64,000 bases of DNA from Limonium bicolor (lineage: Eukaryota; Streptophyta; Magnoliopsida; Caryophyllales; Plumbaginaceae), in contig CM041779.1 of NCBI GenBank assembly GCA_023374045.1, positions 302,694,167 to 302,758,166 on the forward strand, written 5' to 3'. The number at the start of each line of letters is the position of its first letter. Within the stretch, counting starts at the first letter, position 1. Positions 7,846-63,117 of the stretch are shown piece after piece. The notes beneath the pieces are model-generated. The model had not been told where the DNA came from. It saw only the letters and a list, made by a program, of their open reading frames with translations, and ran no database searches. The translations under genes and the position numbers were made by a program.

Positions 7846-7869
7846 CAGTTTCTTTTCATTGCGGTTAGG

Positions 7870-10996: not shown

Positions 10997-11344
10997 TGAA
11001 GCACATCCCGGAGTCCAGAGGTGACTTCCGCTTCCTTGACCCTGGGTGTCGGGAATGGGGGAGTGACAAGTTGGTGAAGCACATCCCGGAGTCCAGAGGT
11101 GACTTCCGCTTCCTTGACCCTGGGTGTCGGGAATGGGGGAGTGACAAGTTGAAGCACATCCCGGAGTCCAGAGGTGACTTCCGCTTCCTGACCCGGGTGT
11201 CGGAAGGGGAGTGACAAGGGAAGTCAGAGGTGACTTCCGCTTCCTTGACCTGGGTGTCGGGAATGGGGGAGTGACAAATGGTGAAGCTTATCCTGGAGTC
11301 TAGAGGTGACTTCCGCTTCCTTGACCCTGGGTGTCGGGAATGGG
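10997..11344 (+). repeat. 78-bp tandem repeat array in 5' LTR of A
   Basis: About five copies of a 78-bp unit containing GGTGAAGCACATCCCGG and GACTTCCGCTTCCTTGACCC. Starts are near 10997, 11073, 11152, 11220 (truncated) and 11280. The unit is a multiple of three, which creates repetitive open frames on both strands that are not genes. Confidence 0.9.
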
Positions 11345-11973
11345 GGACTAGCTATGGAGGAGACGTCCTCCAACGTGCGGTGATAAAAGAATTCACAAGA
11401 AACCCTTGAAGAAACAAGGAATGATTAGCACCTACATAATAAAGCCTCGAGATCTAATCTATATCCCCTGACTCGGTGCCAGAGAATAGAGGAAAACATG
11501 TGTAACGAAACCAAACAAATAAGAAAATTCACAAATGTGATCATTTAAGTAACAAGGAATGAATAGCACCTACATTATAAAGTCTCGGGATCTAACCTAC
11601 ATCCCCCGGACTCGGTGCAAGAGAAGAAAGATAAACATATGTAATGAAAACAAGAAAACAATACGCAATCTCTTGAATGATCCCATAGTGAGGATCGACG
11701 GTATAATGTACCTACGCACACGTTTTATAATTACCTGACTGTTGTTGCTACACTAGCAGCTTATGTGCTGGACTTGCGTGTTTTGACATTGTTGTGTTAC
11801 TTGCAAGATGTGCTTGGTTGCTTGCTGATATTGCTATGCTACCGATGAGTGTGTATGATATCATGATGTACTGATGTGTGCTTTACTGCTTTATCATAGC
11901 ATGTAAAATGACTTAATAATATTCGACCAATTAGTCGTGTGGCCCGGTAACATGCGGGCTTCACACGTTCATA

Positions 11974-12016
11974 CTCAGCGTAGTTTGCTGAGTCCTTTAC
12001 ACCCAATTTTTTTCAG
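11974..12016 (+). promoter_or_regulatory. LTR 3' module: hairpin plus CAG acceptor-like site (5' LTR of A)
   Basis: The hairpin CTCAGCGTAGTTTGCTGAG at 11974-11992 is followed by a T-rich tract and TTTTTTTCAG|GT at about 12016. Equivalent modules occur in LTRs of B, D and E, and at 19438-19479 in the other A LTR. Confidence 0.6.
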
Positions 12017-12374
12017 GTCTTGTGCCAGACGATAACGGAGAGTAGGCAAGGGTGACTATCATAGGGGTAGTCCACATGGCAAGACTTTAAGTAGTATGCT
12101 TTTATGTATGAGTTGTGTTTATGTTGTTTAAGTTGTTAACTAAACTGTAGATGCTCGGTACTTGAGTTGTACTTTATATTGTATTTGGATTTCGTTAAGT
12201 TAGACTTCCAGCCATACAGACCGTAACTTGGAGTTGGTAATGAGGACTGTCAACCACGTGAGTGGTTGGCGTCTGTAGCACCCGAATAGAGTCGAAACCG
12301 CTGCGTAGACATCTCGTATTACCGTTAGGCGCGTCGTTTGATTATTGGTCGTTATTCGGGGTGTTTACAGAAAG

Positions 12375-12402
12375 TGGTATCAGAGCGTAGTTGCGCTCTG
12401 AT
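12375..12402 (+). promoter_or_regulatory. Primer-binding site in a perfect hairpin (element A)
   Basis: TGGTATCAGAGC (12375-12386) matches the tRNA-iMet 3' end. ATCAGAGCG and CGCTCTGAT form a perfect 9-bp stem around TAGTTG (12379-12402), so the site can pair with its own downstream copy of the tRNA-like sequence. Confidence 0.85.
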
Positions 12403-12569
12403 GACTGGAACAGAGGAGTACCGAGTATAGGAAAACCTAAATTTGAGAAACGGGGTTACGGGTTAGTTTGTGAGGCTCGTTTGTTAGGGTCCTTTTCAAT
12501 CCGTAGGAAAACGCTGGAGAGGTAGAAAGCCTCCTCACACTCGGGAAAACCCGATCTGGCGTTTACACA

Positions 12570-12641
12570 ATGGCATATAATCAATCCGGTAAGGAAAACT
12601 ATGTACCCCTAGCTTCTCATCGATGTTTTGGTTTAGTGTAG
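12570..12641 (+). pseudogene. Vestigial gag start, 23 codons, fused to 3' UTR
   Basis: An ATG 200 bp after the primer site opens MAYNQSGKENYVPLASHR and stops after 23 codons. The following bases (GGGTACAGGGGCGTACCCC, then a purine tract) match what lies after the pol stop codon in element B at about 25930. The simplest reading is that nearly all of gag-pol was removed by one internal deletion joining the gag start to the pol 3' end. It is unlikely to make a functional protein. Confidence 0.5.
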
Positions 12642-12660
12642 GGTACAGGGGCGTACCCCT

Positions 12661-12677
12661 CTTTTAAGGGGGGTAAG
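12661..12677 (+). promoter_or_regulatory. Upstream polypurine tract (PPT1) of element A
   Basis: CTTTTAAGGGGGGTAAG, identical over 17 bases to the LTR-adjacent tract at 13026-13042, and preceded by a GGGTAC/GTACCC hairpin. Confidence 0.7.
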
Positions 12678-13025
12678 CGCGTTTTGTTTTGTATGTGTGT
12701 TGATTTATATGATGTATTCCTACAACCACTCGTGGTTGGTTGGTAGGTTTGTGTGTTTGGATTGCGTGTGAAAATGTTATGTACGCTATGTATGAATGAA
12801 TGTTTGTGCCTTGACTTGCACTTTGACATGATATACACATTGCTAGCTCCTTGGTGTACTACGAGGACTTGTGTGAAGCCACTGATGTGGCATGGTGCTT
12901 AGAAGCACTGAGCATTAAATATGGACTTATCTTTTGGGTAGCGATAATGAATGCGGGACTGGATCCCTAAGATTACCAGGAGTGGAAAATATAAGCTAAG
13001 GAAGTAAGACTTCGGGACGAAGTCT

Positions 13026-13043
13026 CTTTTAAGGGGGGTAAGT
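13026..13043 (+). promoter_or_regulatory. Polypurine tract (PPT2) at the 3' LTR junction of element A
   Basis: CTTTTAAGGGGGGTAAGT directly precedes the LTR start TGAAACACCCC. The same arrangement is seen at 26300-26316 in B and, reversed, at 41864-41880 in D. Confidence 0.85.
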
Positions 13044-13471
13044 TGAAACACCCCTGAATATTTACACATAAAATCATAAACGCGAGGAGATTACCCGGTC
13101 GCGTTTCATAAGCCGGACATATAATAAATTTCGAACAATTAAATTTGGTATATACATGTAACGTTATGTATTAATACAGTCACGTACTTATATATGTACG
13201 TTTATAAAAAATACATATACGAAACGTTACAACATTACAACGTCGTATATGATAAATAATAATGTCGCATAGTCACATATAACTAAAACGCGACGAAATA
13301 GAAAGGGGGCATATATAAAACATACATGTGCGTATAAATGACTAGCGCCGTATAAAATTAATAACACGACATATTATATAGTCGTTTATATATATGTAAA
13401 TAAACATGTATATAGCTTATACAAAAAAAAAAGAGGGAAAAAGAAAAAGGGAGCAAATACACTCCCACTGA

Positions 13472-13525
13472 GTTTCGAACCCGAGACCTCCCGTACTTTT
13501 CCCGAGCACTTAACCGTTTGAGCTA
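13472..13525 (-). other. tRNA-like Pol III box A/box B pair
   Basis: On the minus strand TAGCTCAAACGG (box A-like, 13514-13525) is followed by GGGTTCGAAAC (box B-like, 13472-13482). The spacing fits tRNA genes or SINE heads, but there is no clear acceptor stem. It may be a fossil tRNA or SINE head within the LTR. Confidence 0.45.
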
Positions 13526-14949
13526 TTTGCGAATTCAATAACAAACACCCATCTAACTATCTTAGTACCGTGTCTGTCACTGTACTAAAAAAAAAAAAAA
13601 AGAGGATGAACAACAACCCAAACTAATTCACGTGTGCCACTTACTTTCTCATCTCTTCCTCGGTACTACACCTGATCGAACAAAAAAAAAACTTAACAAC
13701 AGACCACATTGTCAGGCATGAGACCGACAAGGATCTGCATCAGGCATGGGCATTATCTCTTACCCTTTTAATGCACTTCTAGGCGTGTGAGAGCCTCTTA
13801 TTGACCTCAGCTTTCAGACTCCCCAATTCCCACGCACGCTCCTTGGGAATGGCTAGCACTAACCCAATGCATCTAACACCAGGAGAAAATGACGACAATA
13901 CTACCAGACAGCAATTCGGTACTTGTTTGGAATCTGCACTCCGGTCTCCAACACACCACCTCCGCTGCATGCTGCTGTCAATGACCCAGGTCAGTTGTGT
14001 CATGTCCCAATGCCAGGACAACAGATGAGAGGACAGTCAGTCACTCACCTGAGAGTAAGCGTTCCAATTTGCACAGGATTTCCAGTGGAAACAGCCACCA
14101 TTAGTGCCTACTTAGCCGCGTCAGTTTTTTTTCTTTTCCTCTGGCCTCTGATGAATATTCTTGCCTCCGTCTTTCCTCTCTTTCCCTTCGTGCATGAGCA
14201 CCTGGTAGGGTGTTGAGAACCCTCAAAGATCCACTCCATTCTTTCTCAAGCTCAGCGCAGGAAAATGTTACCGGTTTGTATCTCTCACACCAGTTTCTTT
14301 CCTGGTTGCTTCTGTCTGAAAACTTCTTCTCAAACCACTTTGATCTTTCTCATTTCTTTTCTTGTTGCACACCAGAACTCTCTTGCTAAGTGCTGATAGA
14401 GCTTTGGAGATTCTGTAGCCAGCCCTCTCCATGATCCCTCCAAGGTAAGACTAGGAAACCAGGAAAAAGGAAAAGTAAAACTGGTTGTTTAAGTTCCTTG
14501 ATACTTCTGTTTTTGTGTCTGAAAATTTGATGAACCGACTTCCTTTTTCTCCTCTGTCCTAGTGTGTGAATTTCCTCGACAAGACCCTTCTGGATCGAGC
14601 CTGAACTTTCGGGGAACCAACACCTAACCAAGGTTAGAAGAACTGTTACAAAGCTATTCTTTACAGCACGTACTAACAAGCTGAAATAATCCATACCTGA
14701 ACTTGTCATTTGGTCTCTGTCTAGTTGTGAGAAGATACCAGAAAAAGACCAAGGGATAACTCAAGAGGGACAAGTGTGTAACACCCAAGGTAGTATTCCT
14801 CAACTCACACTCGTTTCCTGCTTTAAAACTACACCAGAATCAGTGCACTCTACTGCTAAGAGAAAAAAAAGGAACTTACCGTTAAACCTGATAATTAACT
14901 CATGCTTCTGTAACCACTGTGTACTGACTATTAAAGGTCTAGGAGTGAG

Positions 14950-17530
14950 GTAGTTGTAGTGTGGAGTTATTGATGGTATTAAAACACAGTTAAACGTGTA
15001 GGCAGGTTAGTAAACACCCTGGAAGCATCAAGACAGAAACAAGATCAGGGCATGAAAAACAAATCGAAGAAAACTATCTGTTTCAGTTTCGGTTTCCTTC
15101 CACATCAGTGTTAAAACATTCCAATGGTATTAGCAGTTCTGCCTTGGGTTGTTTTGGAGTTAAAAAACTGGTTAAAACACGTAACTAAATAACTTACAAA
15201 CAACTCCTGCGAAACTAGCAAGCAGATTAGGGAACCGAAAAAAAAAATATATATATATAGAAGGAACACACCAACTTAGGTTTCAGTTTTCCAGTTTCTT
15301 TTCATTGCGGTTAGGGGCTCTTCAGTAGCTTGATCCGGTTGTTTTTGGGTCTAACTTGGATGTTAAAACCGGGATTAAGCACTTAATTAACTGAGTGAGG
15401 AAGTAGGTTGGAAAGACAAGAAAACAGAAACCAAATTCTAAGGAAGGAGTAGCAGTGTAATTTCAGATTCTGTACCTAGCTGTTTAGTGGAAGTTGCACC
15501 AGTGCGATGCTGTTTGGGTTGTCTTTTTGAGTTGAAATATAGCTAGAATGATTAACCAAGTGACCAAATAATTTGGGGTGGGATGTGAAGTCAAATCGTG
15601 AATCAAAACAGAAAAGAGTTAGCAGAGAGGATGATAGTCTCTGAGTTTCAGTTTTTTTTGTAGTTTTATTCGGTTCTGTACAAGAGGATTCTAAGGGAGT
15701 TAATAGAGTTGTTTAGAGTTGTTTGTAAGCTTAAAATCTTGCTAAAACGCTTACATGAGTGGTAAACAATTTGGGAAGAATGAGAAATCGGTTCGTGAAC
15801 AAGGACAGGAAATAGAATAGAGAATATCAGGTTCTGCATTACAGATTTTCAGTTTTTATCAGTTTCTACCAGTCTCGGTTTGAATAAGGTTGCAGTGGTT
15901 TTGTTTAGAGTCTCAAGTCTGGATAAAACTCTTAACTCAGCAGCTAAACACCTGAGGGAAACTGAAATGAGATTTAAAAAGCAAGAAAGAAACCGAAAAC
16001 AAACTACACCAGACTGCACTACTTCAGTTGCATAGTTTTTTTTTTCCAAAAAGAGTGAGTTCTGTATATGCTTGTTACAGAGGCTGTGTAAGGGATTACA
16101 CCGAGAGTTCCATAAGTTAAAACACTGCCAAATCATGTAGCTAAATGTTGAACCTTTTGAGGAAGAAATTCAAAGTCAGATTCGTGAGAAGATGAAAGTA
16201 CAAGAAGAGAACAGAAGAGAAATATCAGCTTTGTATTTTCAGTTTTACAGTTCTTCTGAGAACTTAAATTCCACATGATTCTGTTACAGAGAACAAAAAA
16301 AATTGTATTGAGTGGTTAATGATCCTAAAGCATTCTAATGCACTTATTTAAATGCGTAAACACCTTGGGAAAATGATAGGAATCAAAGTAACCAGAGAAG
16401 AAGAGAGTACACCTGTTTCATGATCTCAGTCCCAGCAGTTTTCTTGCTGCTCCAGTATACTAAGTACATCAGTGAGGGTACTACGTTTGTCTAGATAGTT
16501 GTGCGGGTTTACAACATAAGATAAACACGTAATTAAGTAAGGAAGTACAGGGGACAGATCAAAAAGACAGATTAATACCCAACAGAATAGAAACAGGAGA
16601 GAAAGTTACCAGTTTTTATGTTTTGTTTTCTAAAAAAATTGCTCTCTGTATAATGTATTTCAGAGTTGTTAAGGGAAGTTATAGTGGCTTGAAAAATGAA
16701 TTTACAACATTACTGATGCAATGATATTGGTGGGTATATTCATTGGGAAGACTAGAGGACAGTGTAACAAAACAAAGGAAGTAATGCAGAAGAAAACATA
16801 CCTATGCTGTTTCAGATTTTTGATGGTTGATAGGTTCAGTATAATTGAGTTACTACAGGAGTGATATGAGAGTTGTAATGGGTTGATCTTGAGTGTTAAA
16901 ACCTGATAAGACACTAAACTAAGGGGTAAATACTCAGGGGGGATTAGAAATCGGTTTACTAACTAAAAGAAAGGATGAACAATAAACATACAGATTGTGT
17001 TTCAGATTTTCTTTCTGTAATTTGTTGCCTCTGTATAACAGTAATACAGGTGGTATAGAGTGTTTGAAAAGGTTTGGAAATGAGCTTATAACTGTAATAA
17101 TACATATACCTAGGTGTTTAAGCACTCTGAAAAAAATAAGAAATCGATTTAATCAACAAAAGTGAAGTTGGAATGGAAGTGTTCACATGTTTGGTGTTCC
17201 AGTTTCCTGAAACTGTTACTCTGTATGATCGACTTCCAGATGTGTTAAAGCTGGGGTGTTGGTCTAATAATAAACCCAAATCATTACCAAAACACTTAGC
17301 TAAATTGGTAAAACGTTTGGGGGGGAGTTAGACATCAGTTTGACACATAAGAGGTGAAGCTAGGTGAAGTAATGCATGTAAATCGTGTGCAGTTTAGAAC
17401 ATTCAATGCTTCTGTATAAACATGATTCTAGGAGGTTCCTAAAGATTATATTCACTATGATAATAGGTTTAAAACACTGCTAATATCTAGCTAAGATGGG
17501 AGTACACTCAAGGCAAGTTAAATCTGCTTT
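14950..17530 (+). repeat. Degenerate ~190-bp tandem array (3' LTR copy)
   Basis: Same array as in the left LTR, with about two extra units visible at its left (near 15090 and 15280). Small indels distinguish the copies, but unit order is preserved. Confidence 0.7.
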
Positions 17531-18439
17531 AGATAAACTTGTTACAGATTAGTGTTTAAAAGTACCCTAGAATAATAACTAGTGGGAGTACTTGGTTGAC
17601 TCACACAACGACGATGTGAACGTCCTAGGAGTTAAATAATAATCTAACATGAGTACTTGGGGAGTTCTAAGGTTTAGAAATATTGTACGTTCAACGACTC
17701 TCCTAGGAGATAACCCCGGTACAAACGAGATTAACTAGAAAGGTGTCGTCACATGAAATCATAAACTGACACATTATTTTTAATCAACGCTAGGGTCGTA
17801 ACGAATGCTACCCGGGGCCCAGTGCGTGAGACGACACTTGCTTCTGAGTAAGGTATGGGAATGTGTGGTTCGTATGTTGCCGTGTTACACGGCTTGTTTG
17901 CTTTGTGTGCTGTGTGCTTTGTGTGACAATGACTCTAAGACTAAAAGCATGAAAATTGGATTGCTTCTTGTGGCTTGCTTTTATGCGTGTTATATATATC
18001 CTTGTGGCATTTTACTTGCGCGCACACAGTAGTTTAGTCCCTTTCTCGTTTATGGAACTTGAGACGAACTACTACGAACTATGAAACAAAGAAAACTCAA
18101 TAAGGGGAAACTCCTCTCTAACCCATTGAGGACTACCATGACACCCACTATGGTGTCTATTCATTAATCATAATGAAGAGCAAGTCTCCTTGGGTGAGAC
18201 ATGACGAACCACGAAGACAAACAAAAGAACTATACAAAGAGACGAATCCTCTCTAACATTAGAGGACCGCTAATGACACCCACTATGGTGTCGAGATTAT
18301 AATGATAATGACACGAAAAGTATCAACTGTGAAACATGAGAATAACCCGGGAAGACAACAGCTCGGGCCGCGCGGTATGGATGATCGGGAGTTGGTATCT
18401 GCATCAGATCCTTCGACCGTCTATGATGGAATATATTTT

Positions 18440-18815
18440 GGTGAAGCACATCCGGAGTCTAGAGGTGACTTCCGCTTCCTTGACCCTGGGTGTCGGGATG
18501 GGGGAGTGACAAGTTGGTGAAGCACATCCCGGAGTCCAGAGGTGACTTCCGCTTCCTTGACCCTGGGTGTCGGGAATGGGGGAGTGACAAGTTGGTGAAG
18601 CACATCCCGGAGTCCAGAGGTGACTTCCGCTTCCTTGACCCTGGTGTCCGGGAATGGGGAGTGACAAGTTGGTGAAGTACATCCGGAGTCCAGAGGTGAC
18701 TTCCGCTTCCTTGACCCTGGGTGTCGGGAATGGGGGAGTGCCAAATTGGTGAAGCTTATCCTGGAGTCTAGAGGTGACTACCGCTTTCTCGACCCTGGGT
18801 GTCGGGAATGGGGAC
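18440..18815 (+). repeat. 78-bp tandem array in 3' LTR of A
   Basis: Five units starting near 18440, 18516, 18594, 18671 and 18748. All five are near full length, whereas the left LTR has shortened third and fourth units. Confidence 0.9.
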
Positions 18816-19841
18816 TAGCTATGGAGGAGACGTCCTCCAACGTGCGGTGATAAAAGAATTCACAAGTAACCCTTGAAGAGACAAGGAATGATTAGCACCT
18901 ACATAATAAAGCCTCGGGATCTAATCTATATCCCCTGACTCGGTGCCAGAGAATAAGTGGAAACATGTGTAACGAAACCAAGCAAATAAGAAAATTCACA
19001 AATGTGATCATTTAAGAAACAAGGAATGAATAGCACATACATAATAAAGTCTCGGGATCTAACCTACATCCCCAGACTCGGTGCAAGAGAAGAAAGGAAA
19101 ACATATGTAATGAGAACAAGGAAACAATACGCAATCTCTTGAATGATCCCATAGCGAGGATCGACGGGATAATGTACCGACGCACACGTTTATAATTACT
19201 TGACTGTTGTTGCTACACTAGCAGCTTATTGTGCTGGACTGCGTGTTTGACATTGTTGTGTTACTTGCAAGATGTGCTTGGTTGCTTGCTGATATTGCTA
19301 TGCTACCGATGAGTGTGTATGATATCATGATGTACTGAAGTGTGCTTTACTGCTTAAATATAGCATGTAAATTGACTTAATAATATTCGACCAAGTAGTC
19401 GTGTGGCCCGGTAACATGCGGGCTTCACACGTTCATACTCAGCGTAGTTGCTGAGTCCTTTACACCCAATTTTTTTCAGGTCTTGTGCCAGACGATAACG
19501 GAGAGTAGGCAAGGGGTGACTATCATAGGGGTAGTCCACATGGCAAGACTTAAGTAGTATGCTTTAATGTATGGGTTGTACTTTCGGTTTATGATGTTGG
19601 ATTATAAGTTATTAACTAAACTGTAGATGCTCGGTACTTGGGTGGTACTTTATTGTATTTGGATTTCGTTAAGTTGGACTTCCAGTCATACAACCGTAAC
19701 TTGGAGTTGGTAATGAGGACTGTCAACCACGTGGGGGTTGGCGTCTGTAGCACCCGAATAGAGTTCGAAACCGCTGCGTAGACTTCTCCCGCTAACTTAG
19801 GCGCGTCATATTATTGTTGGTCGTGATTCGGGGGTGTTACA

Positions 19842-20178
19842 TACCCTTTTGGATAATGAAAGGATTGTGAATGGGTATAGATGAGTAGTTTGTGGGAACT
19901 CATTATTTTGGTAGACTTGAAAGAGATGTAATTAATATGCTTTTGATACTCGGTAATCCAGTAATGTAAGTACATGATATTTTGTAAGTGGTATGTAATA
20001 TAGTAGCTCGGTATTATTTAGACATCAGACCGTGACTGTAAGTAGTGTAAGCCAAGCTAGCCGTATGGGTAGTTAGCGGCATTGTATCACCCGCCGTAGT
20101 AGTAGTAATTCCGCTGCGAGTAGTAGTATATTAGGATGATTCAACGGTAAGTAAAGGATTAGCGGTAAGGGTGTTACA
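19842..20178 (+). repeat. 3' end of a B-family LTR, split by element A
   Basis: It aligns with 30946-31287, the end of the 3' LTR of B. Shared blocks include CCCTTTTGGATA, CATCAGACCGTGAC and GGATTAGC...GGTGTTACA. It ends at 20178. Identity by eye is only about 70 percent, low for a true LTR pair. No primer site follows directly, so the 5' internal region is deleted. Confidence 0.7.
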
Positions 20179-20319
20179 TCCGGTATGGCATGGGGTACAC
20201 ACGGTTTACCTCACTCCAGGTAAACGACGTTTTAAACCCTTAGTGCCATAGTCTATGTGAAGTAATCCTTTGTATGCAAAGAATATTAGATAATGCCTGG
20301 TGACTCCAGGAGTGCTATC

Positions 20320-20975
20320 ACGTTGCATCTCGTGTCAAGATCATATGCCAGCTGAGGGATGAAGAGCAAGCACTTAAGCATAAGGCAAACAATAAGAACA
20401 CTAACTCAGAGGAGCAGAACCAGGGTAAGACTTGGAAGAAGAGGAAGGGGAAATTTACCCGCAGCTCCAGAAGAATGCCCTGGGAAATAACAGTGCCCAT
20501 GCTGAGAAGGGCAAGGTGGCTCAGCCGTTGCAGCTCACCTATACTGCGCTAGTGGCAGTGAAGCCACTGAGATCTTAGCCTTACAAGGGTAAGGATATGA
20601 AACTAAACTAGTATACATGTGAATTGGTATTAGTATGTCGAACCTTGCTAACTCTGAAGCTACAGGTTCTGGTTCTGGCTATGGTAAGAACCAAAGTGAT
20701 GTCCAAAACTATGTCTGCCGACATTGCAACTAAGATCACACCGACACTTATTGTCAAGGAAGAAAGATCCGATGCTACAACTGCTAGAAACCGGGGCACC
20801 GTGCGAATGAATGCCCCAATAACTCGAAGCCTAAGGGCAACTATCAGTGCTACAAGCAACGCGAAGGCAGGAGGTTGCATCTGGCGATGCTCAGACCCAA
20901 CATACCTCGAAGGGACAAGGGTCCCAAGGTGCTCAGAAGGGCGCACCGCAGAGGCAGCCAGCCTTGCACATCATT
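20320..20975 (+). pseudogene. gag C-terminal fragment of element B
   Basis: Plus-strand reading with frame changes gives a basic region (TWKKRKGKFTR-like), then two cysteine clusters. The second reads RCYNC, stop, KPGHRANECP: a zinc knuckle with one in-frame stop. The first 250 or so residues of a normal gag are missing. Gag would package the element RNA. It is clearly non-functional. Confidence 0.65.
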
Positions 20976-21159
20976 GATCGTGATGGGACCGGTACAAAGT
21001 CCGGCCTAGGTACTAACTATTACCTTTAATCCTTGAAGAGCATGTCTAAAGTATTGAATTACCTGTTTGAGTGAATGCATGAATGTGTAAGCACTTAAAG
21101 TTTGAATTTAAGCATGAAATGAGCTAGTTGAAACTAGAACTCACGTTAGATGAAATTTA

Positions 21160-21954
21160 CAACCAAAGGGAGATTTAATATCTGCTATCCAATACCTTCA
21201 AACCCAAACCATGAAGAAGCACATCACCACTCACCACTTCACCAACGAGCAGTGTCAGGTTATCTGATCAGGTATGATTCTATTAAAAGGATACTTGACA
21301 CCTGAAGCACAAATTGCCATCATACGACGTTGCAACCAGCTAGGAGCGGGTCCAGGAGGATTTTACACACCCGAATTTCCCGGTGGAGCGAAGATGAAGT
21401 TGAAGATGATGTGTTTGGGAAAGGATTGGAACCCTTATACCAAGACATACCAGAAGACGCAAATGTAAGACGGAGCGACACTACCAGCAATACCCACCAA
21501 ATTTCAGACGCTTGTTACACAAGCTGTAGAAATTGCACAACAATGTGAAGATGATCTAATCCCTGCACTTGAAGCAGATCTTTGTATCGTCAACTTCTAT
21601 AAAAAAGAAGGACGAGACAACAGAATCTCTTGAACAAGGCGTGTGCGTAATGTCTTGGTCCATTGGTGATGACGTGGTATTTTTGTATAGCGAGCAGAAG
21701 CGTGTGGACCTCGCCGAGAAATGGTATTGAGATCAGGAGATGTCTTAATCATGGGTGGAAAATCAAGGTTGCTGTATCACGGGATCAAGAAAATCAAGAT
21801 GAATACGGCACCACCGGCGATAATCAATGCCACACACATGAAACTAGGACGCCTAAACCTTACCTTTAGGAAGTATTAACCTTGTAATGCCACGCAATGC
21901 ATTAGTAATGTGTATTAGAGACACAACATGTATGATGGATGGTTTGTTAATAAA
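21160..21954 (+). pseudogene. Captured AlkB-like 2OG-Fe(II) dioxygenase, intronless and broken
   Basis: Between the gag zinc knuckle and the protease is a host-type coding block. GMILLKGYLTPEAQ, GPGGFYTPEFPGGAK, KLKMMCLGKDWNPYTKTY, ALEADLCIVNFYKKEG, SWSIGDDVVFLY, LRSGDVLIMGG and GRLNLTFRKY then stop are in the order of plant AlkB-homologue dioxygenases. These enzymes oxidatively remove alkyl groups from nucleic acid bases. The final RLNLTFR supplies the 2-oxoglutarate-binding Arg and the Asn, and YHG the distal iron-binding His. The stretch that should carry the HxD iron ligands (about 21605) is missing, with a frameshift there, and there is an in-frame TGA at 21265. No introns are seen. The trailing sequence has AATAAA at 21949, so a processed mRNA copy is likely. 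The native gene is presumably elsewhere in the genome. Confidence 0.75.
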
Positions 21955-22037
21955 AGTAGTGTTGGTTATTAAATTCCACTTGCGTTATACCATCGGTTCT
22001 TATACAAATTTATGAATCATTAGGTTGTGCACTCGGT

Positions 22038-22367
22038 ATGGAATGTTCCCTAAGTATTGTCACTGAGACACAGGCCGACAAGAGCGGCACCATTATCACA
22101 GGTTCCTTCCCGGTAAATGGCATTGATGCATCTGTACTGTTCGACTTCGGTGCCTCTCATACCTTGTTTCGCCCATCATTTGCGAAGAGGTTGAGGCTAG
22201 GCGCAGATGAGCTACCAGCCTTCCTGGTTACGCTCCCGTCGAAAGAGCGAGTAAGATGTACCAAGTATTACCAAAATGCCACGATTCGAATCAAGGGTGA
22301 AGAGTTTCCCATCTCCTTCATTGAATTCAATGGGTTGGGATTCGACTTGATAGTCGGGATGAACTAG
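22038..22367 (+). pseudogene. Aspartic protease fragment of element B
   Basis: Retropepsin-like domain: IITGSFPVNGIDASVLFDFGASHTLF, where the catalytic motif DSG/DTG has become DFG. It is followed by the flap-like region and the LIVGMN motif (usually GMDW). The active-site change and the stop after GMN make it inactive. It would normally cut the gag-pol polyprotein. Confidence 0.8.
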
Positions 22368-22559
22368 TTGAGCGGCACAAGGGGGTGAATCCTCTACCGC
22401 GCGTAGATTGCTGCTCAAGAGTCCATCTGGGGTTACTGTTTCATACCGCCAGAGGGCTAGAGAGCCTTCGACTACGATCATCTCCGCTATGGCTATGTAC
22501 CGGGAGCTCAGAAAGGGGCACGATGTGTATTTATGCTATGTGCAAGATCTAGAAAGAGA

Positions 22560-23410
22560 TCCAGAATTCAGCACTGAGGTGCTAGTTGTATCAGAATTTC
22601 CTGATGTGTTCCCAAAGGAACTACCTGGTATGCCACCACAGAGAACAGCAGAGTTTGAGATTGACCTCGTACCTAGTACTGGTCCCATTGCTAGGGCACC
22701 ATACCGTATGGCACCGGCCAAATGATAGAACTTAAGAAGCAATTACGTGATCTACTCGACAAAGGGTTCATATGCCCGAGCGTATCACCCTGGGGAGCAC
22801 CAGTCCTCTTCGTAAAGAAGAAGGACGGTAGCATTCGCCTCTGCATCAACTACTGCGAATTGAATGCGGTCACTGTAAAGAACAAGTATTCATTGCCACG
22901 CATCGACGACCTGTTCGATCAGTTGAAGGGAGCTTCAGCCTTTTCCAAGATTGACCTTCGATCCGGATATCATTAGATTGCCATCCGAGAGCAAGATATT
23001 GAGAAGACCGCATTCCGTACGAGATATAGCCACTACGAATTCACGGTGATGCCATTCGGTTTGTCGAACGCACTAGCCAAGTTCATGAACTTGATGAATC
23101 AGTTATTCAGTGATCAGTTAGGTACTTAGTCTTCATTGACGACATTCTCATGTATTCAAAGACAGCGGAAGAGCATGAAAACCACCTGAGAAAAGTACTT
23201 AAGATACTGCGCAAGAATCAGCTGTATGCGAAGTTCTCCAAATGCGAGTTTTGGCTTGATCAGGTATCATTCCTAGGTCATGTTATCTCAAGCGCGGGTA
23301 TTTCAGTCGATCCGGCTAAAAGTGAAGCAGTACGATCATGGCCTAGACCAAAGACTGTTACTAACATCCGGAGCTTTCTTGGTCTAGCCGGTACTGGAGA
23401 TTTGTGAAAT
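22560..23410 (+). pseudogene. Reverse transcriptase of element B, broken by stops
   Basis: It begins at VVSEFPDVFPKELPGMPP and runs through APYRMAPAK, stop, [38 protein letters not shown], stop, [13 protein letters not shown], and the catalytic [10 protein letters not shown]. It ends with [15 protein letters not shown] and RSFLGLAG. Substitutions and small indels give at least four interruptions. The active-site Asp pair is retained, but the reading frame is not. Confidence 0.85.
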
Positions 23411-23960
23411 ATTTTTCTAAAGTCGCAAAGCCCATGACGACATTGATGAAGAAGGATGCACAATTTGTATGGACTGATGACTATGAGAAATCCTTTCAAA
23501 GCTTGAAAGACTCGTTGACCTCAGCGCCCGTTCTCACTCTCCCAGAGGTCATAGAGAGATTCGAGGTAAATGTGATGCGTCTGGTAAGGGCATGGGATGC
23601 GTACTCATGCAGCATGGCTAGGTAGTAGCTTACGCCTCCCGTCAGCTAAAGATACATGAGGAGAATTACCCTACTCATGACTTAGAGTTTGGAGCCATTG
23701 TCTTTGCATTAAAGATATGACGACATTATCTATACGGGGTAAGCATCGCCATCTATTCTGATCATAAGAGCTTGCAGTATGTCTTCACACAGAAAGAATT
23801 GAATCTGAGACAGAGAAGGTGGATGGAATTCCTATCTGATTACGACATCGACCTTCAGTATAAAGAAGGGAAGGCAAACATTGTAGCCGATGCCCTGAGT
23901 CACCGAGCACACTCACTCCATTCACTACTCACTTCTTCTATCTTGGTTGATGAGGTATGA
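23404..23960 (+). pseudogene. RNase H region of element B
   Basis: It includes KKDAQFVWTDDYEKSF, LKDSLTSAPVLTLPE, a broken first catalytic block near 23580, and [40 protein letters not shown]. The last motif closes the gypsy RNase H domain. Stops at about 23625 and 23720 break it. Confidence 0.8.
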
Positions 23961-24119
23961 GAGGCTTAGTTGAGCGACCCTTACATGAAAGAGATCAGAC
24001 AGAAAATCATAGAGGGCACATTCAAAAACCGAAAGTACGACTTCAAATTGCATGAAGATGCCACAATTGTAATGCCCAACCTTAATCCGGAAATTTTTGC
24101 GCGGAAGCGAGACCCTAAG

Positions 24120-24490
24120 GGGCTCTTACGGATTAGGTCATAAGACCAATTAGGCATCACCGGCGTTGGGTCAAAAGACCCAACCAGCCTATTACTCAGT
24201 GCAGATGGAACAACCATCCACTTAGCCACAAGCAAGAGTCAAGAGTGGACTTAAACCCCCCAACGACAAGTTCCTTCACTGACTCACATTCCCGTGGCCC
24301 AAATGCCTCGGTCGAATGCCAGGCTGCAGCTTAGACTGAGTCAACTCCGTCCCTCTCCCTGCAGCCCGAGTACATGTGCGTCCCTTAGCGGCCGCACTCG
24401 TCCTCGGCACCGTCGGGCCTCCAACAGTCCAACAGCCAAAGACCCCAACTAGTACGAGGCAACTAAGCGTCGTCCTGATTGTATGGCTCC
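24120..24490. other. Unexplained GC-rich block inside pol of element B
   Basis: Between the RNase H/linker sequence (ending near KRDPKGLL) and the recovered integrase N-terminus there are about 370 bp richer in G+C than their surroundings. The block includes a GGGTCAAAAGACCC palindrome, a NotI-like GCGGCCGC and several stop codons. Expected pol residues are missing here. No known element was recognised. Confidence 0.4.
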
Positions 24491-24559
24491 TTCCACGAAA
24501 GGTGCAAGGGGCATTGCACATCAGAGCCGTCTTACGGTTCGGCAAGTGTTGAGTCCTGG

Positions 24560-25343
24560 AACAGGGCGGAGACAGGGTGTGCTAACTTTGATCCGGCTGA
24601 ATGGCAGATTATGTGTTCCCCAAAGCAATGCTGAGCTGAGGGATCACATTCTGCGAGAATCACATTGTTCTACACTATCTGTCCATCCGGGAGCCTCTAA
24701 GATGTACAAAGACATGATGGAGGTACTTCTGGTGGTCAGGAATGAAATCTGATGTGATTGAGTATGTTCTGAGGTGCCTCATGTGCCAGAACGTGAAATT
24801 TGAGCACCGAAGACCGGGCGGAATGGTGCAATCTATGCCAATTCCGGAGTGGAAATTCCATGATATCTCCATGGATTTTATTGTAGGACTCCCACCTGGC
24901 AGGGGAGGACTCAACATGATCTGGGTAGTAGTCGATCACCTCACCAAGGTTGCCCACTTTATTCCGATGAGGGACACCTGGAAGGTGGCGAAGCACGCTG
25001 AGCTATTCGACCGGGAGATCATTCGACACCACAGAGTTCCAAACACCATAGTATCTGACCGTGATACCAGATTTCTTCGAGATACTAGAGAGCCACACGG
25101 GAAGCGTTGGGCACTGAGTTGAAGCTTAGCACTGCATTTCACCCACAGACCAATGGTCAGACAGAAAGGACCATCCAGACACTCGAGGACATGCCTAGAG
25201 CATGTTCCTTAGACTTTCAGCGGAGCTGGATCGATAAGCTTCATCTGATCGAGTTCTCTTATAATAATAGTTATCACACGTCAATCAAGATGTCTCCATT
25301 CCAAGATTTGTATGGTAGACCCTGCCGTACCCCATTGTGTTAG
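24560..25343 (+). pseudogene. Integrase of element B, frameshifted
   Basis: The zinc-binding segment is visible as LRDHILRESHCSTLSVHPGA and LRCLMCQNVKFEHRRPGG, with a frameshift between them. The catalytic core has Asp in ISMDFIVGLPPGRGG and IVSDRDTRF. The sequence then shifts frame and resumes TAFHPQTNGQTERTIQTLED, which includes the catalytic Glu. About 20 residues between the second Asp and the Glu block are garbled or lost. It would insert element DNA into chromosomes, but cannot as read. Confidence 0.85.
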
Positions 25344-25358
25344 GAGGAGTCGAACGAA

Positions 25359-25905
25359 GTGGTCATAATTGGACTGGAGTATCTTGAACAAGTACAAGCT
25401 GAAGTTCAGCAGATCCGAGCAAATATGAAAGCCGCCCAAGATAGACAGAAATCCTATGTAGATGTGCGACAACGCGACCTTGAGTTTGCCGTGGGTGACC
25501 AAGTGTTCTTGCGCGTTTCACCTATGAAGGGTGTGTTTCAATTTGGCCAGAAGGGCAAGCTGAGCCCGAAGTTTGTAGGGCCGTACACGATCATTGAGAG
25601 AGTTTGATCTGTGGCTTACAGGTTAGCATTACCTGAAGAGTTGGGGCGTGTTCATGATGTCTTTCATGTATCACAACTCAAGAATACATAGCTGATTCTT
25701 CTCATGTATTAGAACCTGAACATCTATCCCTAGAGCCGACGATGAGATACGTCGAGACTCCACTGAGAATCCTTGATACCAAGACTAGAGACACTCGCCA
25801 TAAATCTGTACGAATGGTGAAAGTCTTGTGGTCTAACCATGATGTCGAGGAAGAAACTTGGGAATTAGAGGACGCCATGAAGGCGGAGTACCCACAGTTA
25901 TTGTA
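25359..25905 (+). pseudogene. Integrase C-terminus and chromodomain-like tail of element B
   Basis: DRQKSYVDVRQRDLEF, GDQVFLRVSPMKGV and GKLSPKFVGPYTIIERV form the GPY/F region. One stop then precedes RLALPEELGR-like and HDVFHVSQL sequence. The tail RYVETPLRILDTKTRDTR, MVKVLWSNHDVEEETWELED is the divergent chromodomain of Tekay/Del elements, thought to steer insertion to heterochromatin. It ends at TAG near 25905. Confidence 0.8.
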
Positions 25906-26316
25906 GACTAGATTGTCTAGTGCTTAGAGGGTACGGGGCGTACCCCTTTTTAAGGGGGGTAGAGCCATTTTGTTTTGGCATTGCTTCGGATAGCATTGCA
26001 TAGTATGTATGTATTGTAGTACACTTTGTTGGCACAATGTAGTGCTAACTGTATTTTGGTATGTTTGCACAATGTGTAATGTACTTGTGTTATACGGTAT
26101 ATGACACAATTGGTAGTGTGATTGTATTGTAGAATTGCTTGCATTGTAATTGTGTATTGCGCTTGGATTGTGTAGTACTTGTAGTGTATGGAATGTGAAC
26201 ACCTTGTAAGGTGGTAGTAATGTATGATCTTTGGCAATTGAGTTACCAAATGAGTAGAGATGGTAAACCGCCAACCTAAGCAACTTTGAGGGTAAAGTTC
26301 CTTAAGGGGGGTAGAT
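25906..26316 (+). other. 3' untranslated region of B with two polypurine tracts
   Basis: It starts after the pol stop. The hairpin GGTACG...CGTACC (about 25930) is followed by PPT1 TTTTTAAGGGGGGTA (25947-25961). A TG-rich low-complexity stretch follows. PPT2 CCTTAAGGGGGGTAGAT (26300-26316) touches the 3' LTR. No gene is visible. Confidence 0.75.
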
Positions 26317-27300
26317 TGAAATACCCAAAATTAAAAATAGTGATTAATTAGGCTAATGAGGATTTTATAAGCTTAATTTTCCTAAATAAACACGTGGGAA
26401 CAATTCCCAAAGAAAACGGACCCATAAAACGGATTAAAAACACAAACGTACCTTAAAGCGTGTTTTTCAAGGAAAACCGGGAAAACACGACTTTAAGTAG
26501 GTTAAATAGAACCGTAATAATTTTAGTCAATTAATATCTATAATTAAGCATTAGTGAAGGGCTAGAGCCATTAAAATTAATTAAACGAGAAAAATTCTGG
26601 AATACGGGTTCAAGTTAGTGAATAGTGCAAAAACGAGAAGTTGAGGGGTGTTAGTTGTAATAAGAGAAAAACATTTCCCCATGTGCAATTAAAATATGAA
26701 ACTTTGTGAGTGTGTGTGTGTGTGGGACGATTATTCAGCCCTCTCCTCTCTTCTTTATTTACTCTCACTCACAAAGGATAATGTAATAAAGGGAGAAAAA
26801 GTAAAAAGCCTCTATCTCCTCCCACTCCTCTCTACTCTCATGATTTTTCTCTGCTCCACAATCCCCTCTTCTTCCTCCATCTCTGTAATGGCGATTTAGA
26901 AACCCATCACAACAGCCTCATTTCACCCATTTTGAGAGCCAAAATCAAGTCCAAAGGCTACAAAAATTATACCGTTGAATTCCCTTAGTTTGTGAGATCA
27001 TTTCCACCCTTCAAAAATTGAAAATATCCAACTCCATATCCATGGCTGTTGCTTCCATTGGAGCTTGAAGGTGACCATTGGAGCTCCAACTTCTTCTTGT
27101 TGTTCTAAGATAAGAAAGGGACTCAAGTTCTTCTTTTTCCAGCTTTTCCTTTGTAAAAATGAAAAACCCACGTTTGAACCCTACTGCTCCTTGTTCAGCC
27201 GGTTTTAGCATTCCAATTTAGGAGCTGAAGCTTTGCCACTTTGCTACCCAAAACTTCATCTAGAAGTTCAAGATAATACCTCCTTAGAGTTTTGAGCATT

Positions 27301-28429
27301 TGTTAGGACAAGATCCTTTAGTTTTGATGATAGTAAACCTTATATTGTCTATCTAATGTGTTTGTCAAGATTCATGATTCAGATAGACAGGTGAATAAGT
27401 GGCTTAGCATGCAAGGTTGCAAGCGCACTTAAGTCATGAGTGGCTTAGCATGCAAGATTGCAAGCGCGCTCAATCCACTACATGTGCCCTACCAGTCGCA
27501 CACCTGCCTGTGAGAGCTCCGTAGAACTTCTAGCACAGACAACCAGTCAGACACCGCACGAAAATATCTCTTATGCTTAAAGATGAAAATCAAAGACATA
27601 AGACTGCAAAGGATTGACACATTCATTTAAGACACATACATCCACATGAGCAACTTGTTCAAGACAAGCTCGCGACAAAAAGAAGAAGTCATTAATGCAC
27701 AAGATAACAAAGCTGTAAAAGAACATCATTACATAGCTGTAATGAATTCAGAAGAGGGCATTTATGAGCATTTAATGAGCCAAACAAATCAGGCAAGTGG
27801 GGCACACAAATGGTGATCGACCTATCAAGAAGGTTGCCGCCAACTTGACCAACCATGAGGCAACACGTAGCTCAAGCCTCCAGATCAAGTTGAAGACTCT
27901 CTGCAAGTCTAGTGTGTTTGTTATGTGAATAATCCAAGTATTAGTCGACTTCTAGAAGTCTAGGGATTAATAGGACGGTAGTTACATCCTAACAACCGTA
28001 TATATACTTGCATCTATTCTATATGTAAGTAAGCCCTGTACGAGAGAAAAGATAGAGATAATCTAGGCAAGTGTGGATCAGACTTAGGAGTGTGTGTAAG
28101 TGCTAGAGAGTTGGTGAGCTAGAGAAAACTGTGTAGAGTATCAATACATTGGGTATTTGATAGGACAACAGGTCGGGGAACAGTCGGTTAACCGTAGGCC
28201 AATAGTCAGGAGAGGGTTGACGACTTTAGGGGTAAAGTCGAAACTGTCCCGGGAGTCCGTGTGTGGGGCAAGGGAGGTTAAGTGAATTTCGTGTATGTAA
28301 ATTCTCAATCGAAATGTGTTTTCCAGTTTAAAGTTATCCCTTGTCTCTCCTTAAACTATCAAGATTTATTAGAATCCACGATACGTCCACGACACGTCGG
28401 GGACGCATCGGGAGCGCTTGCTAGTTTCA
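27301..28429 (+). mobile_element. Solo Ty1/copia-like LTR with perfect 5-bp target duplication
   Basis: 1129 bp beginning TGTTAGGACAAGATCC and ending TAGTTTCA, flanked on both sides by GCATT (27296-27300 and 28430-28434). A TATA box (GTATATATA, 27999-28006) gives plus orientation. A 37-bp direct repeat with GGCTTAGCATGCAAG lies at about 27400-27475. No internal region remains, so it arose by LTR-LTR recombination. Copia type is inferred from the start sequence. Confidence 0.88.
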
Positions 28430-29349
28430 GCATTCTCTTATAAGTTAGGGTTTAATTCTTGAGTTAGGAAATTTACTTGCTTTGTTGTGTATCCCTTGGA
28501 ATGTGGCTGTAGCTTGGCCAATTTAAAATCAAGAAACAAGAAAAACAAGAACAAAGAGGAAAGGAAGAACAAGAAGGGAAGAAGGAGAGAAAGGAAAATA
28601 AACCAAGAAACCTAAGGTAATGAATTTACCTTTGTACAGATTTTAAGGGTTGAGTATGGTAACTACATTGCTTTAGTATCGTGTAATGCTACAGTAATGG
28701 TAGGAAAGAAATGGAGTATGTTAGTGTTGATTATATTGATAAATTAGAAGCTTTTGAACCAAGTGAATAAAATGCTAAGTGTGGGAATTAAGTGTGTGGT
28801 AAGTGTTTAGAATTTTGTATGGATGATGTATGTATTGAACAGGGATGTAAAACTGAGTTGAATAAGCAAAATAATATGGTGCGAATGCTTATAAATGTAG
28901 GAAAACTCTGTCAAAATTTGGGTAGAAACTAGAGGACTTGATAGTGCAATTGTTTGGAAAGAACCTAGGTTGGTCTAGGTGTGTTTAAGGATTGAATTGA
29001 AGTAGTTATCACATAGGTTTGTATTAGAGGGAAGTTGTGTACTTGAGTAGAACTAGAAATGGAGTAATGTAAGCTGCTTAACTAGGTAGTGCTAGATGAA
29101 GAACTATTGAGTTAGAGAAAGCAAGAAAGTAAAAATCTGTAGCAGCAACTTAAGGAAGAAAACTAACAAAGAAAAGTGTGTAAAATTATCAGAGGTTGAG
29201 TGATGAGTTTGATGATTGAATTGGGGTAGTTTAGAGAGTCTAATCAGTGTTAAAATATGCTAGATTTTATGTAGGAAGATCGGGGAAGAATTTGGTAAAA
29301 AATTGAAGTTGAAATAGAGTCAAAACTGTCAAACTTGAACGTTACTGCA

Positions 29350-29591
29350 CTTGGTCCGGACAGAAACCCGGACCAAGCACAAAACATGACAGAAAGGAAT
29401 ACAGAAGGAGTGGTCCGGGTTTACAATTTAGTACACAAACCTGGACCACCCCAAAATGTAGACAGAAACTTAATCCGTGTATGGTCCGGGTTTGTGAATC
29501 GGTACACAAACCCGGACCACTCTAAAATCACACCCGAGACTTTTCCAAAGCCTTGGTCCGGGTTTGTAACCTCGGACACACACCTGGACCA
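29350..29591 (+). repeat. Four tandem hairpins with GGTCCGGGTTTGTG arms
   Basis: Palindromes at 29350-29377, 29410-29449, 29482-29519 and 29554-29591. The third has a perfect 15-bp stem (TGGTCCGGGTTTGTG) with an 8-nt loop. Spacing is about 60-75 bp. Two equivalent hairpins occur in LTR E at 49278-49315 and 49351-49386. Confidence 0.9.
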
Positions 29592-30768
29592 CTCTAAAAA
29601 CTTCACAGAAATAGTTTTAAAGCCATTTTAAGGTAGGGACTTGGTTGGTAATGTTATTATAAGGTAAATAACACTTGATTAATGATGTTTAATGGTCATA
29701 AAGGGCATAAACAAGCTTAGGAAGTAAATTTAAGTTAGTGACTTAAGTAATGAATTTGAATTGCAAGAGTTAGTAACTATAGTCGGGAAAAATTAAAGAT
29801 AAGATGAGTTAGGTTAATTGTAGGTAATTAACCGCCCGATCCCTTGTATGTTATAGGACCCAAATAGTTGAACTCCGAAGAAAAGTTGGAAGTCCGAGAA
29901 TGATGGTGAACGGTATAATTTTCACATGCCCCGTATGCTACCGTGGTTACCTGATTTGTGTGTTTGTGTGTTATGTATGATCACCTAATTAAGATAAAAT
30001 GCACGAATCGGGTTTATTGCACTTTCTTGTGCTTGTAATGTATTGTTCCTTGATGGATTGTATTTGAACTTGTAGTTTGTATAATTCATGAAATGTATGA
30101 TTGTGAATGAATCGTTTGGTTGCCTTGGTGTGAAGTGTACTAACCAAGTAGTATGGAAAGAATGATTTCTCACTAACTCCTAACTAAGTAACATTTCTAG
30201 CCTTGAGTAAAAATGGTAATTGGAGTAATGTGAGGAGTCCGATATAGGTTCAGCCACGCGTGAGAATGAGGAAATACGAGAGGTTGTTTCCGAGTTCTGG
30301 CCTATTCTTCTTTGCGGTCCAAACCCCTTAAATGGGTAGGAACCCTAGGAAGTAAGCCACCCTAAAGCCCGGTGGTGGGATATCGTAGTCCCTACCCGGA
30401 GGTCACACCGACTTGACTTGAGTATTAAAGTAAGAAGAGTAATTGGCCAAGTAAAGGTCATGACTAGTGTAAGTCAAGTATCTCGAGTAAAAGAGTAAAG
30501 TACACCCGATTAACCCGGACGAGTAAGTAACTACCAAAGTAATGAGTATGAACTTGAGAAGTGTATCTCAGTGCCTAGGTAGGTAGGAATGGTTGATTTG
30601 TAATTGCCTTCCATTGAATGTATCGGATTGTATGTATGTATGCACTATGGTGTGAATGCATTATTGATCATTATAGCATGTATGCATGAATAAAATAAAT
30701 GAACTCCATGTATGCGACCAAGTAGTCGGCGTACCCCCGTTAGCACGCGGGGTATGTGAATTTCATAC

Positions 30769-30812
30769 CAGCTTTTGCTGAGCCCCTGGGGCACTGTTTT
30801 TATTTCTTCCAG
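30769..30812 (+). promoter_or_regulatory. LTR 3' module of B: twin hairpin plus CAG site
   Basis: CAGCTTTTGCTG, then GCCCCTGGGGC, then a T-rich tract and TTCTTCCAG|GT. LTR E has the same order on the minus strand (47647-47688). Confidence 0.6.
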
Positions 30813-31287
30813 GTACTCGTGAGGAATGATGGTCGTGTTAAGACCGAGATGAACTCTTTTTGTGTAGTTAGTAGGATGAGTATGGTGTACCAAGTTGTAC
30901 ACAACTTATAGCCTCTTTGTGTAGCCGGTGTACCATGTGGTACACCCTTTTGGATATTTTGGATTGTGAACTTGGTAGGAATGAGTAGTGGTATACTCTC
31001 ATAGCTTTTGATTAGGCATGTAAGAATGGGATGTAATTCGATATGAATTTGTATACTAGGTAATCCAAGGATGTAAGTAAATGCTGGGAATGTAATGGAA
31101 GTATTTGTTATTGTTCGGTATATGCTATTCATCAGACCGTGACAATAAGTAGTATGCGCCTTGTTAGTCATTGGGTGGCTAACGACGTTGGATCACCCGC
31201 CGTGAGTATGTAAGAATTCCACTACGAGTAGAGTAATTATGGATACGATTAGAGGATAATAATAGGATTAGCAGCTGGGGTATTACA

Positions 31288-31876
31288 GATAGACAATTTT
31301 GATAACTTTAAAATAGATTCTTCTTCAACGGACGTGAAATTGGTGGAAATGATAGACAATTTCGATAATTAAGGAATAGATTATTCTTCAATGAATGTGA
31401 AATTAGTGGGATTGATAGACAATTTCTAAAACTTAGAAATAGATTCTTCTTCAGCGGATGTGAATTTAGTGAAATTTATAAACAATTTTGATAACTTTCA
31501 AATAGATTCTTCTTCAACGGACATGAAATTAGTAGGATTGACAGACAATTTCGACAATTTTCAATGAGATTCTTCTTCAACGGACGTGAAATTAGTGAAA
31601 TTGATAGACAATTGAGGTAACTTTAAAATAGATTCTTTTTCAACGGACATGAAAATAGTGGAATTGATAAAAAAATTTGATAGATTTAAAGTAGATTCTT
31701 CTTCAACGAACGTGAAATTGGTGGAAATGATAGATAATTTTGATAATTTAGAAATAGATTCTTCTTCAACAAATGTGAAATTAGTGGGATTGATAGACAA
31801 TTTCGTTAATTTTCAAATAGATTATTCTTCAACGGACGTGAAATTAGTGGAATTGATAAACAATTTTGATAATTTA
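31288..31876. repeat. 63-bp minisatellite, about nine copies
   Basis: Unit pattern GATAGACAATTTTGATAA, then ATAGATTCTTCTTCAACGG and a GTGAAATT(A/G)GTGG-like end. The 63-bp length equals 21 codons, and long stretches are open on both strands. The plus reading repeats DSSSTNVKLVE and IDNFDNLEI. It directly abuts the end of LTR B. No host gene was recognised around it. Confidence 0.9.
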
Positions 31877-41863: not shown

Positions 41864-41880
41864 ATCTACCCCCCTTAAAA
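41864..41880 (-). promoter_or_regulatory. Polypurine tract (PPT2) of element D
   Basis: Minus strand CCTTTTAAGGGGGGTAGAT, directly before the LTR start TGAAATATCCC. Confidence 0.85.
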
Positions 41881-63112: not shown

Positions 63113-63117
63113 ATGCT
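63113..63117. other. Target-site duplication of element D, right copy (ATGCT)
   Basis: Same five bases as 36619-36623. Confidence 0.9.

Follow-up and report, generated by a model that had tools for sequence, protein, structure and literature searches.

A probable accessory ALKBH1-type gene between gag and pol of a high-copy chromovirus group in Limonium bicolor

We analyzed a 64,000-nucleotide stretch of the Limonium bicolor genome (assembly GCA_023374045.1, contig CM041779.1, positions 302,694,167 to 302,758,166), hereafter the window; all features of the element described below lie on the forward strand. A preliminary description made from the letters alone had placed an AlkB-like dioxygenase between the gag and protease regions of a retroelement, and both the identity and the position were borne out. 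Read through with X, the block scored 125.2 bits against the Pfam profile PF13532 (2OG-FeII_Oxy_2), for which the cut-off is 31.2, and its 5′ and 3′ pieces taken separately scored 54.1 and 51.2 bits. A sequence search found OsALKBH1 (5xeg) to be its closest solved relative (E 3e-51). Gag zinc-knuckle residues lie upstream, and an RVP_2 protease (62.2 bits, 22038-22364) lies downstream.

Profile, sequence and family comparison place the ALKBH1-type exon, including its stop, at 21169..21879; comparison across the family bounds the coding part at 21169-21876 and the stop codon at 21877-21879, with no intron inside. The exon is decayed. A frame-shift-aware alignment to the protein P0002, with homology over 21168-21876, revealed stops at 21265 and 21466 and shifts at 21210, 21607 and 21722, and an eight-residue gap at 21607 removes the HxD iron ligands. 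The window copy was thus correctly described as inactive and as lacking HxD; it is a dead, old relic of what we call lineage A. The AATAAA reported in the tail of the block is present at 21949..21954 and recurs in all 14 aligned copies of lineages A and B, and it was not seen in three copies of lineage C.

The other parts of the element were delimited largely by alignment to related copies. Only the end of gag exon 1 is present (20179..20219), the remainder being missing here: homology to L041, L043 and L045, sequences from other copies, begins at 20176-20179, and a gag exon-1 protein match was obtained in all three of these and not in the window. Alignment with 10 B-type copies places gag intron 1 (CTCCAG|GTAAAC ... 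GACTCCAG|GAGTGC) at 20220..20309. It is followed by gag exon 2 (20310..20588) and gag intron 2 (CAAGG|GTAAGG ... CTACAG|GTTCTGG; 20589..20665), both from the B-type alignment. Gag exon 3 (20666..21009) carries the zinc-knuckle residues and, from alignment and frames, ends in phase 1 at the donor CCTAG|GTAC. The stretch between gag and AlkB, intron 3a (21010..21168), ends in the window with the acceptor CAAAG|GG, versus TTAG|GA in most B copies. Downstream of AlkB, a noncoding stretch (21880..22023) runs to the pol acceptor CATTAG|GT, a motif found at 3606 places in the genome. The remains of pol (22024..25907, the end being estimated) comprise, by profile search, protease, reverse transcriptase (RT), an RNase H trace, integrase H2C2, an SH3-like piece and a chromodomain-like tail; they contain many stops and shifts, and RVT_1 and H2C2 score below their cut-offs.

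Comparison with other copies places the 3′ long terminal repeat (LTR) at 26316..31287 (TGAAATACC ... GTATTACA), broken by about 1.1 kb (27300-28425) that is absent in L043, L045 and L046. The LTRs of L041, L043 and L045 are 82-90% identical to it. An LTR end at 19843..20178, which abuts gag at 20178/20179, is 71-73% identical to the same three sequences. We had considered 19843-20178 and 30944-31287 (71% identical) as the LTR pair of the AlkB element and rejected this, the comparison with L041, L043 and L045 showing that the left piece belongs to a related but different subfamily.

Several other repeats share the window. A 63-bp tandem repeat (9.4 copies, 31288-31876) starts at the next base after the 3′ LTR. 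A younger LTR element occupies 7846-19838, with LTRs of about 4.5 kb that are 97% identical, the left one running into a 500-N gap; it has the primer-binding site (PBS) TGGTATCAGAGC and about 2.9 kb between its LTRs, with no open reading frame of at least 120 amino acids. A second gypsy element with two long open frames lies at 2-4110 (Chromo 23.6 bits, just below the cut-off of 25.1). Two copies of a 2-kb direct repeat, 39829-41865 and 61081-63114, are 95.6% identical and 21 kb apart, perhaps the LTRs of a very long element. CACTA-type transposase remains (Transpos_assoc, Transposase_21, DUF4218) lie at 53853-56482.

We then looked for the AlkB block elsewhere in the window's own genome (2,924,550,425 bases). 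A DNA search gave 9069 first-look candidates, of which 40 were scored; all 40 matched, these being the window itself (100%) and 39 other places at 81-89% identity. Seven of them (L002-L008), taken with 1.5-kb flanks, aligned continuously to the window across the end of gag, AlkB and the protease, and six of the seven also aligned into RT. An exact 29-mer of the AlkB exon occurred at 3544 places and a 29-mer at the pol acceptor at 3606, with a control at 0 in each case. Among the first 100 pol-acceptor places listed, 67 had the AlkB motif upstream, 66 of these at a distance of 753-819 bases; of the other 33, the three that were fetched still held AlkB, badly broken in one.

Protein searches widened the family. 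P0001, an ENA protein 64% identical to the window block, matched at all 150 scored candidates (73-77% identity), 137 of which had no stop by table count. Twenty of these matches (L009-L028) define a second lineage, B; all 20 align from the start of AlkB into the protease, where their DNA is 70-72% identical to the window element, and the eight that were displayed upstream of AlkB all have gag frames there. A search with P0126, a Ranunculus ALKBH1, matched at all 81 scored candidates, by eye at places other than the P0001 matches; the three of these copies that were read belong to a third lineage, C, and have the order gag, AlkB, pol. Two more groups were each seen in a single copy: L050, which resembles P0002, stands for D, and L051 (C1:115789900-115791000) for E. 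The lineage-E copy is open over 263 amino acids, with GLQQDKD in place of GLHQDKD at the first iron ligand, and many frames of 263 amino acids occur among the 150 matches of the search that gave it. Runs of the AlkB motif spaced 10.4-10.7 kb apart were seen at G000:C1:1430701-1462108 and C1:7386765-7418629, as expected of tandem LTR-internal-LTR arrays.

Altogether the order of gag, AlkB and pol was kept in 30 of 30 other copies fetched with flanks. The window copy is therefore not a lone retrocopy, because the same junctions recur across copies and lineages, and we rejected that reading. The preliminary description had proposed a genome search for shared gag-AlkB-protease junctions and had suggested that, if these were found, the element would have spread with a demethylase gene; the recurring junctions agree with this. 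It had set against this a unique junction flanked by a short duplication, and what we found is a junction common to the other copies fetched. The chance landing of a host ALKBH1 mRNA copy in one old gypsy element, where it never mattered, would account for an exon that has no introns, ends near an AATAAA and is dead in the window, but it is very improbable in view of the thousands of copies, the junctions shared by those fetched, the many open frames, and the several lineages that fall into one clade. Around the window block itself, no poly(A) was found 3′ of the stop, the longest run of A being four bases, and no convincing target duplication, the two shared 8-mers comparing with 1.06 expected. 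A 5-base TAGGT pair around the block was rejected as a target duplication and is now read as splice ends.

Searches in other places returned less. The native host ALKBH1 gene was not found, the five matches read from two protein searches (L047-L051) all being element-like. A protein-database query set for lengths of 368-1170 amino acids gave 436 matches, and the best 120 of these had no retroelement Pfam domain that would mark a Gag-AlkB fusion. Nothing was found in the viral contigs and prokaryote genome contigs searched. Two predicted proteins of Smallanthus sonchifolius, P0121 and P0122 (786 and 583 amino acids), contain, as read, at least two AlkB domains in tandem.

To characterize the elements that carry the gene, we took the side sequences of nine of them, six B-type and three A-type. 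LTR pairs of 3.7-4.2 kb were present in five of the six B-type elements. One of the three A-type elements had an LTR pair (L045/L046, 1.6 kb, 92.7% identical), and the other two had none. Exact 5-bp target duplications flank four of the five complete elements, and in the same four the PBS TGGTATCAGAGC follows the 5′ LTR; in the fifth, the PBS match is cut. Kimura two-parameter distances between the LTRs of the five complete elements were 0.0044-0.0238. At a rate of 1.3e-8 per site and year, this divergence corresponds to about 0.2-0.9 million years, so that complete elements of recent origin exist. The one AlkB element measured is about 14.6 kb long. Pieces taken from open frames of the B type scored 67.1 bits for Retrotrans_gag and 25.8 bits for Chromo (cut-off 25.1). 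Chromodomain, gag, protease, RT and PBS together fit a Ty3/gypsy chromovirus.

Short GT-AG stretches, variable inside and flanked by conserved exons, interrupt the gag region of B-type copies at two shared positions. Intron 1 contains the word CTAAT in all 10 aligned B-type copies. Of 20 B-type copies, 17 have intron 1, two are unreadable, and one, L024, lacks it precisely (position 628). The spliced exon 1-exon 2 junction of the B type was found at 381 places in the genome with at most two mismatches (control, 0), and all of the 100 places listed were exact. Since there are copies that lack intron 1, it seems that spliced RNA of the element was reverse transcribed and inserted; some of the 381 places may be later copies of one such event. 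These hundreds of intron-1-less copies are a natural record of element RNAs that were spliced and then reverse transcribed. No copy without intron 2 was seen among the 20 B-type copies, 18 of which have it, two being unreadable.

The third intron would have one donor and two possible acceptors. The donor AG|GT at the end of gag was at the same place in all 14 aligned copies of lineages A and B, and the expected stretch contained it in 28 of 28; finding an AGGT anywhere within 170 bases is not a stringent test, and it is the fixed place of the donor that counts. An AG acceptor precedes the [FL]NICY sequence of AlkB in 25 of 28 copies, in phase 1 in all 25 that could be read, and another precedes pol in 27 of 28, in phase 1 in all 27 readable. 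Of 25 copies in which the gag frame could be read, 24 arrive at the donor in phase 1, and L010 is shifted. In lineage C, the two copies tested (L048 and L049) each have a phase-1 donor, CC(A/G)A|GTA, that is compatible with either acceptor; other donors fit too in L049, and the stronger GTAAGC site of L048 lies past a stop. If the RNA is left unspliced, the gag frame of the copies displayed runs into a stop shortly past each donor. Because these signals are conserved and compatible in phase, alternative splicing of intron 3 into either Gag-AlkB or Gag-Pol is strongly suggested. A spliced intron-3 junction, gag|AlkB or gag|pol, was seen in none of the 20 B-type copies.

AlkB might instead be a protein of its own, translated from RNA that is unspliced or initiated internally, with intron-3 splicing serving gag-pol only. 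The B and C copies read do have an ATG at GMILL, AlkB has its own stop, and the gag frame of unspliced RNA ends before AlkB, but 25 of 28 copies have an AG acceptor in the phase of gag where the AlkB exon begins, and a separate protein would lose the PFDIC-like stretch upstream of the ATG, which stays open. We regard this arrangement as rather unlikely.

The preliminary description had called for a family member that keeps HxD in an open frame, and lineage B provided many. A motif search found an open AlkB frame of 211 amino acids in 17 of 20 B-type copies, and NFY, HxD, HG and RxxxxxR were all kept in each of the 17. In lineage C, AlkB was open in three of three copies, with all motifs in two, L049 lacking the first R. 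In L051, the single copy of lineage E that was read, Q replaces H at the first iron ligand. P0001-P0004 scored 127-158 bits against PF13532, far above the cut-off of 31.2.

Ten pairs of AlkB frames were compared. Seven had dN/dS values of 0.055-0.140 (one of them at dS 2.4), one had 0.28 at dS 0.007, and two had saturated dS. In the six pairs with a usable dS, dN was 0.01-0.06 against a dS of 0.18-0.43. A dN/dS of about 0.1 may overstate selection, because the B copies were selected by protein score, which favors low dN, and because dS exceeds intron-3 divergence (AlkB dS 0.29-0.36 versus 0.11-0.12 for L012 compared with L010, L026 and L022); set against intron divergence, dN gives a ratio of about 0.3, which is the more cautious value. 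Protein change is low, and AlkB stays open in both lineage B and lineage C, between which dS is at or near saturation.

These values bear on whether AlkB is an unused passenger in an intron of the element, its open frames being those of young neutral copies. Gag-pol splicing would indeed remove the stretch that contains AlkB, and the LTRs are young, so that decay has had little time to act on many frames. Neutral drift would nevertheless have to leave dN at 0.01-0.06 while dS reached 0.18-0.43 in six pairs and introns diverged by 0.11-0.12 where measured, keep the catalytic residues complete in all 17 open B-type frames, and hold AlkB open across the B-C split. We consider an unused passenger improbable.

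The AlkB of the element belongs to the plant ALKBH1 class, which is nearest both by sequence and by fold. In a predicted model of P0001 (pLDDT 93), the nearest fold was OsALKBH1 (TM 0.93), with ALKBH5 at about 0.56. P0001 shares its fold and catalytic residues with plant ALKBH1 (OsALKBH1, 5xeg/5xoi) and is 52% identical to it in the structural alignment; the element clade differs from plant ALKBH1 in a shorter loop and in GDDxxF, [KR]R[MV]D and N-x-TH residues. With ALKBH1 as the nearest fold and a chromodomain present, assignment to the orchid type, an ALKBH5-type gene in a Tat/Ogre-like element, does not fit.

In two trees, the element AlkBs and P0001-P0004 formed one clade (support 99/100 and 100/100), set apart from angiosperm ALKBH1; an earlier tree, with five sequences of this kind, had given the clade a support of 93. 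Since the element AlkBs form one clade, a single capture by an ancestor of the elements is likely. One tree placed the clade beside Ranunculus (80/73); the second gave its position without resolution, with an AU p of 0.59 for holding the clade and Ranunculus together. The stem of the clade is about 0.64 changes per site long. P0001-P0003 come from other records, and since the best scored copies here reach at most 77% identity to P0001, at least one more genome probably carries such an element. The match of P0002 to lineage-D DNA extends upstream beyond the AlkB exon and covers P0002 residues 7-271, which suggests the same setting in another genome.

We think it probable that the window holds a relic of an accessory ALKBH1-type gene of a high-copy chromovirus group, a gene captured once, alternatively spliced to give Gag-AlkB, packaged, and active in demethylation. 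In this model, the ancestral element would have taken up a plant ALKBH1-type coding sequence once, into its gag-pol intron, and kept it while splitting into several lineages. Unspliced RNA would serve as the genome, its gag frame ending just past the intron-1 donor. Removal of introns 1 and 2 would give Gag with its zinc knuckle. Splicing from the single donor at the end of gag to the AlkB acceptor would yield Gag-AlkB, ending at AlkB's own stop, and splicing from the same donor to the pol acceptor would yield Gag-Pol, with AlkB lost as part of the intron. Gag-AlkB could then enter the particle with genomic RNA and demethylate or dealkylate the RNA or cDNA of the element, so that host control might be blunted or damage repaired. 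The demethylase function is putative, predicted from residues and fold, and we infer the packaging, substrate and benefit of Gag-AlkB. An enzyme that acts chiefly on host RNA or DNA, for example by disturbing silencing, and not on element nucleic acid in the particle, is somewhat unlikely; a host target was also proposed for an orchid element in the part of PMC9289625 that we draw on.

We put forward a more specific version tentatively, as a conjecture with a little less than an even chance of being right: that ALKBH1 was turned into an alternative last exon of gag, that one donor chooses between Gag-AlkB and Gag-Pol, that the product is a particle demethylase, and that all this arose independently of the orchid ALKBH5 elements. 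If true, nucleic-acid demethylation would be a recurrent need of plant LTR retrotransposons. DNA 6mA is among the targets to consider for ALKBH1-type enzymes, and a gene of this class puts DNA 6mA and cDNA repair among the possible targets, beside RNA m6A and m1A. AlkB domains also occur in plant RNA viruses. Like the viruses of this kind named in the sections of PMC9289625 used here, the elements are mobile RNA agents that carry AlkB.

The literature searched, to which subscription papers and preprints did not belong, showed no ALKBH1-bearing chromovirus and one lineage of AlkB-bearing plant retrotransposons in print, that of the orchid. As far as the consulted part of that report goes, a screen of 121 angiosperm genomes found a 2-ODD domain only in Phalaenopsis, in the ALKBH5-type ORF2 of Ogre-like elements, whose product was active on m6A in vitro (PMC9289625). 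Gypsy_Pa_2799 and its relatives resemble the elements described here in being plant LTR retrotransposons with an extra AlkB-family gene, catalytic residues kept and a high copy number (PMC9289625). According to the same portion of the report, however, Gypsy_Pa_2799 carries an ALKBH5-type gene (paALKBH5-like ORF2) in a Tat/Ogre-like element with dual RNase H, whereas ours is ALKBH1-type with a chromodomain; it has a tRNA-Arg PBS, 25.5 kb of length and 6.4-kb LTRs, compared with the PBS TGGTATCAGAGC and 14.6 kb in the one element measured here; and it has a separate 565-amino-acid ORF2 with gag-pol in one ORF, compared with an AlkB exon between gag and pol and introns in gag (PMC9289625). The orchid elements embody the same idea, but the gene class, element lineage and expression route differ, and the capture described here is a separate one.

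Other parallels concern splicing and additional genes. Introns are generally absent from plant LTR elements, and the text consulted names Ogre and EVADE as the exceptions (PMC12786077); against that background the splice layout found here is unusual. As in the gag-pol intron of Ogre and the short-GAG splicing of EVADE, as that text presents them, splicing here would set the gag and pol products (PMC12786077). Unlike these, the present element is a chromovirus, with two short introns in gag and an alternative exon that codes for an enzyme. The 5′aORF of sunflower Tekay group 2, as described in the part of PMC11728184 available to us, is similarly an extra ORF, retained by some 500 members of a chromovirus lineage; it lies 5′ of gag-pol, and that part mentions no AlkB domain (PMC11728184). 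That a gene of another AlkB class was captured a second time, independently, by a chromovirus with thousands of copies is an argument that control of epitranscriptomic marks or of alkylation is important to these elements.
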